Shown here in pieces: positions 43,104 to 46,383 of a DNA stretch of 64,000 bases (position 1 is its first letter; each line of letters opens with the position of its first letter). The DNA comes from Natrinema zhouii (GTDB lineage Archaea; Halobacteriota; Halobacteria; Halobacteriales; Natrialbaceae): positions 3,100,001 to 3,164,000 of the forward strand of contig NZ_CP059154.1 in the NCBI RefSeq assembly GCF_013456555.2, written 5' to 3'. The position numbers were made by a program, and so were the translations under genes. The notes under the pieces are model-generated. The model was not told the origin of the DNA. It ran no database searches and saw nothing but the letters and a program-made list of their open reading frames with translations.

Positions 43104-43505
43104 CCGAAACGCACCACGACAACGGTCTCGCAGAACAGCAACAGACAGTACCAGGTCACGTTCCCGAAGGCAATGGGCGACGCGCTCGAGCTCGCTGGCG
43201 AAGATGTCGAATGGGTCATCGTCTCATCGTCGAAACTCGCCCTCGAGAAAACGGCTGAGTAGAGGCGCGCGTTTCTCCGCAAGTCACAGAGGAGTGACGA
43301 CGATGTCACCCTCGAGTTACAGCGCGACCGTGTCCCGGAACTCGCGGAGCAGTTGGCCGACAACGTCGACGTGATCGGCCTTGGCGTCCATACCGGGTTT
43401 AGTGTCCATACGATGGCTGTCGATGAGGAGCGGATCGACGTGAACTCGGAGGTTGAGGCCCTACTCGAGGCCTCTCTCGGGAGGAGTTTCGCCCGGCCGA
43501 TTTAG
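43104..43505 (+). pseudogene. AbrB/SpoVT-like antitoxin relic with continuing frame
   Basis: The frame 43104-43259 reads TTTTVSQNSNRQYQVTFPKA then MGDALELAGEDVEWVIVSSS, a swapped-hairpin AbrB domain, but it has no start codon (a TAG precedes it at 43101). After a TAG at 43260-43262 the same frame continues to 43505 (DVTLELQRDRVPELAEQLAD) without matching a family I know. Missing start and internal stop indicate a decayed gene or genes. Confidence 0.55.
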
Positions 43506-43633
43506 CGACGATCTACCGGTGTCGGTGGGAGGTGGAGTTGCTCTTCCGGGAAGTTAAAACGCAGTACGACCTGGATGAGTTTGATACGACGAAGAAGATA
43601 CTACCATCCAATCGACTGCTGAGATTTGCCTAA
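43481..43633 (+). pseudogene. IS4-family (ISH8-like) transposase fragment
   Basis: The frame reads EEFRPADLATIYRCRWEVEL then LFREVKTQYDLDEFDTTKK and soon stops. This is the conserved C-terminal catalytic region of ISH8-type IS4 transposases (the Y-(2)-R-(3)-E-(6)-K signature around YRCRWEVELLFREVK). Everything upstream and downstream of it is missing, so it is a remnant. Confidence 0.75.
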
Positions 43634-43640
43634 TTACCAA

Positions 43641-43650
43641 TGGTAAGTTA
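43641..43650 (+). repeat. TGGTAAGTTA direct repeat, right copy
   Basis: Second copy of the 10-base repeat, just after the transposase fragment. Confidence 0.4.
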
Positions 43651-43729
43651 CACCTTCTTGTAGAACATTTATTGATTGAGCCCCTTAATAAGAAAGCTTA
43701 TTAATGGGTACAATCAATCTATAATTAGA

Positions 43730-43783
43730 ATGAAGCGGAAAGTCGGCGAATACGACATTGCGCTGGACCTCAGCGAGTACTAG
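43730..43783 (+). other. Possible 17-codon open reading frame
   Basis: ATG at 43730 (MKRKVGEYDIALDLSEY, then TAG), preceded by AT-rich sequence with TATAATTA about 10 bases upstream. It may be the N-terminal remnant of a longer gene or chance. Low support. Confidence 0.2.
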
Positions 43784-43847
43784 GGAACCTTCCGCTAACG
43801 ACAGCTTTCCAGTAACACTAGGAAACTAGCTATAATCGCGGATACGC

Positions 43848-43899
43848 GGCTCTGGGTGGTCTGGGGGGTACCTCTCGGGTTCAATTCCGAGCAGAGCTA
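43848..43899 (+). other. Armless tRNA-like sequence
   Basis: GGCTCTG at 43848-43854 pairs with CAGAGCT at 43892-43898 (six Watson-Crick pairs and one G-T), followed by A as discriminator. Directly before the 3' strand is a T-arm-like hairpin CTCGG-GTTCAATT-CCGAG, with an 8-base loop instead of 7. A short G-rich D-arm-like part is present but there is no anticodon arm. At 52 bases it is a shrunken tRNA or attachment-site relic. Confidence 0.5.
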
Positions 43900-43915
43900 T
43901 TAGGGAGATAATCAG

Positions 43916-45130
43916 ATGCCAGTATCAAATATCGGCGTTGGCAGTATCACTTGGATCACTCTCAGTTTGGGGGCCTTTGGGATCCCTATCGGGGCATATG
44001 GTGTTGTTGCGATTACATACATTCTGTTCAAAGCATTCGTTGCCCGGTTCTACGAGCCCGTCGATCACTCCTATGATTACGACGGGGAGAGTGTGTCCGT
44101 GGTGATTCCGGAGTACAATGAGGATGCTGACCTGTTCGAACGCGGCCTCAAGACCGTACTCAACCAAGACTACGATAACCTCAAAGAGATCTGGGTGATC
44201 GACGATGGGAGCGATCAGCTCGATGCTTGGGAAATCGCTAAGCAGTACGCCGAAGAAAACGAAATTATCAACGTCGCGCGGCTAAATGAGAACCAGGGCA
44301 AGCGTCGCGCCCAGGCAGAAGGGTTCAAACAAGCGACCGGCGATATATTTGTCACGATCGACTCAGACACGCTCGTCAAACCCGACGCGATCAAAGAGTT
44401 AGTCCAACCCTTTCATGACCCAGAGATCCAAGCCGTCACGGGACAAGCCCGCATCGTCAATCCAGACAAAAAGCTGCTCCGTAAACTGATCGACATGCGG
44501 TTTTGGGTCGCATTCAACGTTGAGCGCGCTTGCCGGTCGGTATTCGGAACCGTGATCGTTTGCAGCGGCGTGTTCTCTGCGTACCGGCGCGAACTGGTCG
44601 TCAATAACCTCGATGATTACGTGAATCAGGAGTTCCTAGGCGCGGAGTGTACCTTTGGTGACGATCGTCATATGACCACCTACGCACTTCAGCGGGGGAA
44701 AGTTGTTTATCAGTCAACCGCCCAAGTCCTGACTGACACGCCCGATGAGCTCCAGAACTACCTGACCCAACAGACCCGCTGGATGCGCTCGTTCTGGCGC
44801 GAGTCGATACTTGCCCTTCGGTGGGCACCCAGCCGGAGCAAGCTCCTCGCTGGCATGATCACTATGGACATGGTGCTGCCGTTCGCACTGATCTTCTTCG
44901 GGTTTGGTTCTGTAATCTTCCGCACCCTAACCACAGCCGCGAGTATTCCGTTGATTTACGTCGGGATCGTCTTCGCGGTTGCGTACATCCGCAACGTCCC
45001 GTACAGCCGTGAGGACTTCACGACCTACCTCCTCGCCCCCGTATACGGCGTTCTGTACCTCGTCACGCTGCTCCCGCTGACGTTTTACGCGCTGGCGACG
45101 GTCAACTCCACCGGCTGGGGAACTCGATAG
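43916..45130 (+). CDS. Hyaluronan-synthase-like processive glycosyltransferase (GT2)
   Basis: A 404-residue membrane GT2 enzyme, the length of class I hyaluronan synthases. UDP-sugar and catalytic motifs are DDG at 96-98, DSD at 149-151, GDDRH at 248-252 and QQTRW at 285-289. The middle part matches streptococcal HasA, as I remember it, almost segment by segment: AFNVERACRSVFG, VCSGVFSAYRRELVV, YVNQEFLG, GKVVYQSTAQVLTDTPDELQ and RSFWRES. One or two helices precede and three or four follow the catalytic domain, enough to form the export channel. So it probably makes and secretes hyaluronan or a closely related polymer; chitin or another beta-linked glycan is the alternative. It lies in a low-GC island. 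Confidence 0.85.
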   Translation: MPVSNIGVGSITWITLSLGAFGIPIGAYGVVAITYILFKAFVARFYEPVDHSYDYDGESVSVVIPEYNEDADLFERGLKTVLNQDYDNLKEIWVIDDGSDQLDAWEIAKQYAEENEIINVARLNENQGKRRAQAEGFKQATGDIFVTIDSDTLVKPDAIKELVQPFHDPEIQAVTGQARIVNPDKKLLRKLIDMRFWVAFNVERACRSVFGTVIVCSGVFSAYRRELVVNNLDDYVNQEFLGAECTFGDDRHMTTYALQRGKVVYQSTAQVLTDTPDELQNYLTQQTRWMRSFWRESILALRWAPSRSKLLAGMITMDMVLPFALIFFGFGSVIFRTLTTAASIPLIYVGIVFAVAYIRNVPYSREDFTTYLLAPVYGVLYLVTLLPLTFYALATVNSTGWGTR

Positions 45131-45382
45131 AGACGGAGTTGCGCTGTCGTTGCTGTTTGGGAAGATCCCGATACTTCTGTGCAAGCCGTCTGAGAGGTCC
45201 CATATCGACAGATTTTTACTCACGTTATTCTGGAAGAATATTTCAGGACTAGCTGAAGTTGTCGTCAACCAGTGGAAAAACGGCAAACAGACTGAATCTT
45301 AGTCTCTAATGACAGTAATAGTGGCTTAATTGACAGTAGGCCATTAAATACAATACAATTTCACTTCTCGGTATAACTGTGA
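45131..45382. promoter_or_regulatory. Intergenic region with promoter of the lyase-like gene
   Basis: The octamer TGACAGTA occurs at 45310-45317 and again at 45331-45338, 21 bases apart (two helical turns). It is followed by a TATA-like ATTAAATA at 45343-45350, 33 bases before the ATG at 45383. This suggests a regulator binding one face of the DNA just upstream of the promoter. Confidence 0.45.
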
Positions 45383-46309
45383 ATGGAGAAAAGCGATCCG
45401 GACTCGCGTAGAGTGAACAGACGTCAGGTAATGCAAGGCGGGGTCGGGCTCGCGTTTGGTAGCATACTCAGCGCTGGAGTGCTTGGTATGCAGTCGGACG
45501 GGACGAATACCGAGAGTCCTGGCAGCCAAACCGAACTCCGACAGACCGAGATGAATCACTTAGAGTACGACGAGTATAATTCGTGGAACGATATGTATTG
45601 GCGCTCTGCTGGCGATAGAGACAATATTTCGTTGGGATCGTTTCCGGCATACACGGATGGCACAGCACTGCAAATACGTGCTCGAGATGGGAATCACTGG
45701 GGTATTGACACCCATTACGAGTTTGAGAACGGTGTAACCAAGTTGACCAGTGAATTCAATTTCACGCTCGGGAAAGATTGGCGTATGGATGGCCGCGAAG
45801 TAGCCTCCTGTCGACTGTGGAATTGCGCGGCTTCGTTAGGTGAGGGTTTCGCCGGTGGTGGGCAACCCGACGGCACGAACGGTTGGAGCAACCGATTGTA
45901 CGTTACCAACTGGCAGACTGACCCTGACGGTCCATTTCACCTCCATTCATACACGTACCATATGGATCGTATCTATGATACGGACTACATTATTGACGGA
46001 GAGCGCTACGCGCTAGCTCAGCCGGAGATCGTACCTTGTGAGTGGTATAACTTCAAATATACCGTGCAAGTCAATACTGTCGAGGATGGGAAGGCAAATC
46101 CTGACGGTGCCGTTACCTATTGGCTTGACGGAGACAAGATCTACCACCGATCCGATCTACGGTTTACCGAAGACCTCGACTCAAATATTATTGCCACGAA
46201 CGGACCTGCTGTTCACTATGGGGGCCGATACGCAGCTCCTCAGGACCTCTATGCCTACTTCGAGGATCACGCGATGGAGGTTGAGCGGGATCCTCGCAAC
46301 CCCTGCTAA
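45383..46309 (+). CDS. Tat-exported polysaccharide-lyase-like protein
   Basis: A 308-residue secreted protein. The N-terminus carries a Tat signal (NRRQVMQGGVGLAFGSILSA) with no lipobox Cys, so it should be released. The mature part looks like a concanavalin-type jelly roll of the PL14/PL20-like lyases: a strand-rich core with TSEFNFTLGKDW, then WYNFKYTVQVNT, TYWLDGDKIYHRSDLRF and AVHYGGRYAAPQDLYAYFED near the C-terminus. Such enzymes cleave uronic-acid-containing polymers. Its place directly after the hyaluronan-synthase-like gene suggests that it trims or releases that polymer. The family assignment is by pattern only and catalytic residues are not assigned. Confidence 0.65.
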   Translation: MEKSDPDSRRVNRRQVMQGGVGLAFGSILSAGVLGMQSDGTNTESPGSQTELRQTEMNHLEYDEYNSWNDMYWRSAGDRDNISLGSFPAYTDGTALQIRARDGNHWGIDTHYEFENGVTKLTSEFNFTLGKDWRMDGREVASCRLWNCAASLGEGFAGGGQPDGTNGWSNRLYVTNWQTDPDGPFHLHSYTYHMDRIYDTDYIIDGERYALAQPEIVPCEWYNFKYTVQVNTVEDGKANPDGAVTYWLDGDKIYHRSDLRFTEDLDSNIIATNGPAVHYGGRYAAPQDLYAYFEDHAMEVERDPRNPC

Positions 46310-46383
46310 TAGCTGAGTCGACTGCTCCGACCGTTCCATTTCTTTCGGCCCGCGGGTTGAGTCAGTACTTGAGCGCGGTTGGG

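Follow-up and report, generated by a model that had tools for sequence, protein, structure and literature searches.

Vertebrates, some bacteria, and chloroviruses are the known sources of hyaluronan, a polymer that lubricates animal tissues. The stretch of Natrinema zhouii DNA analyzed here (the window, 64,000 nt of a 3.78-Mb contig, the main one of this haloarchaeal genome of 5.3 Mb) raises the question of whether an archaeon might make such a polymer as well, since two neighboring genes had been proposed in an initial annotation to encode a hyaluronan synthase (HAS)-like enzyme and an exported lyase. We found no report of an archaeal hyaluronan synthase in a literature search of open-licence PMC papers. 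Haloarchaea growing on hyaluronan and chondroitin were described in 2026, and these polymers were called uncharacteristic of hypersaline habitats; growth on hyaluronan was attributed to PL8 lyases (PMC13260240), which belong to a different family from the second protein of this locus. If the first gene does encode a hyaluronan synthase, it would be a direct candidate for an endogenous source of the glycosaminoglycans that some haloarchaea degrade. Such an enzyme would, in addition, be relevant to how hyaluronan synthases arose, and a salt-adapted version could be useful in biotechnology, while the second gene would represent a new haloarchaeal family of lyases or binding proteins.

Both genes are intact open reading frames on the same strand, and they are flanked by ordinary haloarchaeal genes, including those for an AMP-binding enzyme and a Trm56-type tRNA methyltransferase (Table 1; gene neighborhoods here and below come from simple ORF calling and not from curated annotation). 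The GC contents of the synthase gene and the second gene are 55% and 53%, respectively; the window mean is higher, at 62%.

Table 1. Features of the two-gene locus, in window coordinates.
Feature	Position	Strand	Basis or comparison
IS4-family transposase remnant (C-terminal piece), abutting the left block edge	43496..43630	+	NF033592, E 2.4e-10
Two-gene block shared with Natrialba taiwanensis DSM 12281	43635..46319	+	88.2% identity over 2707 columns (2.7 kb)
Conserved upstream segment of the block	43635..43915	+	82% identical in Natrialba
Class I HAS-like GT2 protein, 404 aa: N-terminal membrane helix, GT-A domain, C-terminal membrane helices, terminal WGTR	43916..45130	+	Motifs, structure hits, tree, AF2 model
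Intergenic region, 252 bp	45131..45382	+	Comparison with Natrialba
Protein with Tat-type signal, 308 aa, assigned to the PL14/PL20/PL36 jelly-roll uronate-lyase superfamily	45383..46309	+	Profiles, homologs, residue alignment

Reading the first open reading frame confirmed the GT2 motifs at the residues originally claimed (DDG 96-98, DSD 149-151, GDDRH 248-252, and QQTRW 285-289), and both segments quoted from it, VCSGVFSAYRRELVV and GKVVYQSTAQVLTDTPDELQ, are present. The HAS motif set is complete (DxD 149-151, GDDR 248-251, QxxRW 285-289, and WGT(R/S) 401-404), and these motifs are beyond chance because the protein matches HAS structures at an E value of 5e-43. That value belongs to Chlorella virus HAS (CvHAS), its top solved relative together with Xenopus HAS1 (XlHAS1; E 5e-39); a profile search with the synthase family reached HAS structures at E 1e-70. 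Hydrophobic segments lie at the N terminus and within the last 100 residues, which fits HAS topology. The AF2 model (25 alignment rows; pLDDT 85.8, pTM 0.86) has the HAS layout and fold, in which membrane/interface helices at the N and C termini flank one GT-A domain, and a Foldseek search with this model returned HAS entries at all of the first thirteen ranks. In VIA-align comparisons, the model fitted CvHAS with a Z score of 35.9 (rmsd 2.1, 372 residues aligned) and XlHAS1 with a Z score of 32.5, compared to no more than 24.6 for chitin synthase and 24.3 for cellulose synthase.

The residues that contact substrate in solved HAS enzymes are mostly kept. In the channel of XlHAS1, GlcA has R287 and R296 close by, and the acceptor site is lined by F292 (PMC11750622); the window synthase has R195, R204, and F200 at these positions, as expected of an HAS. 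CvHAS binds the GlcA carboxylate through K177 and R341 (PMC12987647), which correspond to K129 and R288 of the window synthase; both of these are also found in NodC, the rhizobial chitooligosaccharide synthase, which shares the superfamily and the core motifs. Elsewhere NodC differs, with E and C at the positions of R195 and F200, GED in place of GDD, and a terminal WLSR in place of WGTR.

The top-scoring named NCBIfam model for the synthase is NodC (TIGR04242). The score, 242.7 bits, falls far below the equivalog cutoff of 550 and resembles those of two streptococcal HasA proteins (222 and 224), both of which have an adjacent UDP-sugar dehydrogenase; a Lactococcus protein scored 319 and a true NodC 748. 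In a tree of 48 sequences, the window protein formed a haloarchaeal clade (support 99/97) with the proteins of Natrialba taiwanensis and of two genomes from a different family. This clade adjoins streptococcal HasA (assigned from sequence and hasB context, not from record names), whereas NodC lies deep inside a different group. An AU test rejected grouping of the haloarchaeal clade with NodC (P = 0.022) and did not reject grouping with streptococcal HasA (P = 0.33), a result that permits this grouping without proving it. Grouping with the Chlorella virus and Xenopus enzymes was also rejected (P = 0.003), although the exact position of these two is unsure because of their long branches, and they are represented in the tree by the stretches that PDB alignments show, not by full-length sequences. 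The GT2 protein does not group with NodC, chitin, or cellulose synthases: it stands beside streptococcal HasA, it retains residues of the HAS type, and its best model fit is to HAS. On the combined evidence of fold, residues, score, and tree, an identity as NodC or a chitin synthase was rejected. It is also improbable that the enzyme uses GlcNAc only, in the manner of NodC, and makes a chitin oligosaccharide or a chitin-like polymer; GlcNAc-only enzymes are indeed close kin, and NodC is the nearest named model, but that score, the rejected grouping, and the HAS-type residues R195, F200, D249, and WGTR all argue otherwise.

We conclude that the first gene product is a class I HAS-like enzyme, and the synthase half of the original two-gene reading is well supported. 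Its likeness to streptococcal HasA (class I-R) extends to size and layout, to the GDDR, QQxRW, and WGTR motifs, and to the Cys before the SG motif, which is one position off relative to CvHAS and XlHAS1, as it is in HasA. HasA proteins are the nearest rows outside the haloarchaea; the tree path to them is nevertheless long, at about 3 changes per column, and the host is an archaeon. CvHAS and XlHAS1 (class I-NR) are the best structural matches but are much longer proteins.

For hyaluronan to be made, UDP-GlcA would be needed. The UDP-glucose dehydrogenase gene that adjoins the synthase in has operons is absent from the surrounding window genes and from the Natrialba locus, and there is no adjoining hasC; the gene that comes after encodes the exported lyase-like protein instead. 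An AglM UDP-glucose dehydrogenase scoring above the curated cutoff is encoded elsewhere in the genome, and Natrialba has one too; therefore, UDP-GlcA is probably available in both hosts. In all of the Lactococcus, Pilibacter, and streptococcal HasA-like relatives examined, a UDP-sugar dehydrogenase gene adjoins the synthase gene. Such arrangements also occur in other archaea. A Bathyarchaeota MAG, DVMM_5, carries genes for an HAS-like synthase, a UDP-sugar dehydrogenase, and a GalU-like uridylyltransferase consecutively on one strand (L071:5170-8375; JAOZGY010000049.1, a 9.7-kb contig); AglM is the top equivalog for this dehydrogenase, and the gene order is that of the hasABC operon. An HAS-like synthase gene is followed by a nucleotide-sugar dehydrogenase gene in a 1.18-Mb Bathyarchaeota contig (L070:5968-8560; CP070826.1) and in a Nanoarchaeota MAG (L090:1751-4179).

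Gene context alone is no proof of hyaluronan, because in two Streptococcaceae genomes (L193 and L194) a 546-aa capsule-type synthase, possibly a GlcA/Glc capsule synthase, also adjoins a UDP-glucose dehydrogenase gene and falls just outside the HAS clade. The dehydrogenases at L070 and L090 score best as UDP-ManNAc dehydrogenases, and thus some relatives may use other uronates. The window synthase could make a different uronic acid polymer, for example a GlcA/Glc polymer like the type 3 capsule or one containing ManNAcA or GlcNAcA, and its partner could be a lyase for that polymer; the characterized PL14, PL20, and PL36 enzymes in the literature covered act on alginate or glucuronan and not on hyaluronan. 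We think this unlikely, since HasA is a closer neighbor of the window synthase than the capsule synthase is, and since the Arg of GDDR and the Ser and Arg after QQxRW are present in the window synthase but absent from the capsule synthase.

The second protein had been described as Tat exported and as resembling a PL14/PL20-type jelly-roll lyase. Its N terminus does carry a twin-arginine motif (NRRQVMQGG), from which export by this route is predicted. Taken alone, the protein gave a subthreshold Pfam match to PL14 (PF21294; E 0.0011, 19.2 bits against a cutoff of 27), and an AF2 model from a two-row alignment reached a pLDDT of 28, too low for use. Its homologs were more informative. In an alignment of 25 of them, 21 matched PF14099 and 9 matched PF21294 at an E value of 0.01 or better. 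One paralog encoded by N. zhouii itself scores above the PF14099 cutoff (30.9 versus 29.9). The best solved match to the family profile is the Chlorella virus PL14 lyase vAL-1 (E 7e-4); among the homologs, one from Halorussus matches Aly36B, a PL36 lyase, at E 1e-10. The active center of PL36 consists of K143, R169, Y185, and Y187 (PMC8286568), and R144, R171, Y190, and Y192 of the second protein fall at or next to these positions, with the alignment of R144 ambiguous by one column. Because of the homolog and profile matches and the Arg and two Tyr shared with the PL36 center, kinship with the superfamily that comprises PL14 (vAL-1 and AkAly30), PL20 (glucuronan lyase), and PL36 (Aly36B) is supported at the sequence level. 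The protein differs from these enzymes in its Tat-type signal, in forming a separate haloarchaeal family, and in carrying Arg where the catalytic Lys would be, or directly beside that site.

This last difference makes lyase activity uncertain, and with it the enzymatic part of the original claim; the Lys-to-Arg change opens the possibility of a role in binding only. The second protein could then be a catalytically dead lyase relative that holds the polymer at the cell surface as an anchor or capsule protein. Arg occupies the catalytic Lys position in the close family, and the Tyr that matches PL36 Y185 varies in the wider family. There is also a precedent in Cip1, a solved structural relative of the lyases in which convincing lyase activity was not seen (PMC3764139). 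The window protein itself, on the other hand, keeps R171, Y190, and Y192. In pectate lyases, moreover, Arg is the catalytic base. We regard a binding-only protein as a serious possibility, though one that we do not favor over an active lyase.

In the plasmid records closest to the second protein, this family goes by the name "hypothetical protein." The neighborhoods of 16 lyase-like homologs, about 50 to 56% identical, were scanned for a polysaccharide locus shared among them, and no recurring synthase partner was seen. In the N. zhouii genome itself, three distant lyase-like paralogs are clustered with glycosyltransferase-like and flippase-like genes (L044:8466-15192; C1, about 326.5 to 333.2 kb); at least one has a Tat signal match, and one is the paralog above the PF14099 cutoff. 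On a Halorussus aquaticus plasmid (L067:1712-11248), two relatives annotated "polysaccharide lyase," including the one that matches Aly36B, lie in a glycan synthesis cluster with an ABC transporter and a CDP-glycerol glycerophosphotransferase.

Whether the two genes belong together was addressed by their distribution. The synthase was found in 4 of 391 haloarchaeal genomes and, within the family, in 2 of 125, namely, the window genome and Natrialba, where the lyase-like gene lies directly behind it in both cases. The expectation that the pair would recur was thus borne out in N. taiwanensis (91% amino acid identity for the synthase and 88% for the second protein), but in just that one other genome of the 391 and as a comobile block. 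The shared block has sharp borders, starting 281 bp before the synthase gene and stopping 10 bp past the second gene; beyond it, no sequence in the 64-kb window matched the 18.7-kb Natrialba stretch compared. The full upstream segment of the block was found in none of the 391 haloarchaeal genomes apart from these two. A transposase remnant abuts the left edge in the window (Table 1), and in Natrialba an integrase gene lies about 330 bp from that edge. Between the two genomes, dS was 0.28 for the synthase gene and 0.27 for the second gene, and dN/dS was 0.16 and 0.23, respectively. By these estimates both genes are under purifying selection, and the similar dS and low dN/dS values fit a joint transfer followed by ongoing selection on the two genes.

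These data also bear on the possibility that the two genes are unrelated passengers, brought side by side by chance on one transferred segment. Lyase-like homologs are common without the synthase (homologs occur in 62 of the 391 genomes, most of which lack it), and two genomes (G070 and G125) carry the synthase without the lyase. The 252-bp gap could, moreover, hold a separate promoter: an AT-rich stretch directly before the second gene (positions 45330 to 45359) is kept in Natrialba and may be that gene's own promoter. However, in both genera the block holds no other genes and its edges fall at the borders of the pair, and selection appears to act on both, so that a chance pairing seems quite unlikely. 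Because two genomes carry the pair, the case for a functional unit is built on one shared block together with selection.

A tRNA-like hairpin (positions 43848 to 43898, with the T-arm-like sequence GGTTCAATTCC) lies just upstream of the synthase gene and is kept in Natrialba. It was considered as an integration site and rejected: ARAGORN called no tRNA, its folding equaled that of shuffled sequences (z = -0.01), and its sole other genome hit was in an apparent coding sequence.

We hypothesize that the two genes move horizontally as one unit, whose products build a GlcA-containing polymer resembling HA and then act on it extracellularly; we give this reading an even chance of being correct. The first gene would encode a class I HAS-type synthase, a single chain embedded in the membrane, most likely using UDP-GlcNAc and UDP-GlcA, the latter from the host AglM, and extruding hyaluronan or a closely related GlcA-containing polymer through a membrane channel of its own. 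The product of the second gene would be a jelly-roll protein of the PL14/PL20/PL36 superfamily, exported by the Tat route, that most likely cuts the polymer by beta-elimination, thereby setting chain length or releasing the polymer, or at least binds it. An HA-like identity of the polymer is moderately supported and its trimming by the second protein weakly supported; some archaea may thus make and trim hyaluronan-like material. A more far-reaching version, in which archaea make hyaluronan itself, haloarchaea exchange a two-gene cassette of a class I HAS and a dedicated, previously undescribed HA-trimming jelly-roll lyase, and Bathyarchaeota possess complete hasABC-like operons, is tentative and in our judgment rather unlikely to hold in full.

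Among viral contigs, a query with the single synthase protein and a search with the lyase profile found no relatives, and more distant HAS-like proteins were found only with the synthase profile. Three contigs catalogued as viral (L106, L107, and L108) encode full-length HAS-like synthases with 34 to 35% identity, and those of L106 and L107 cluster with a protein from Actinoplanes, close to the Chlorella virus and Xenopus enzymes.
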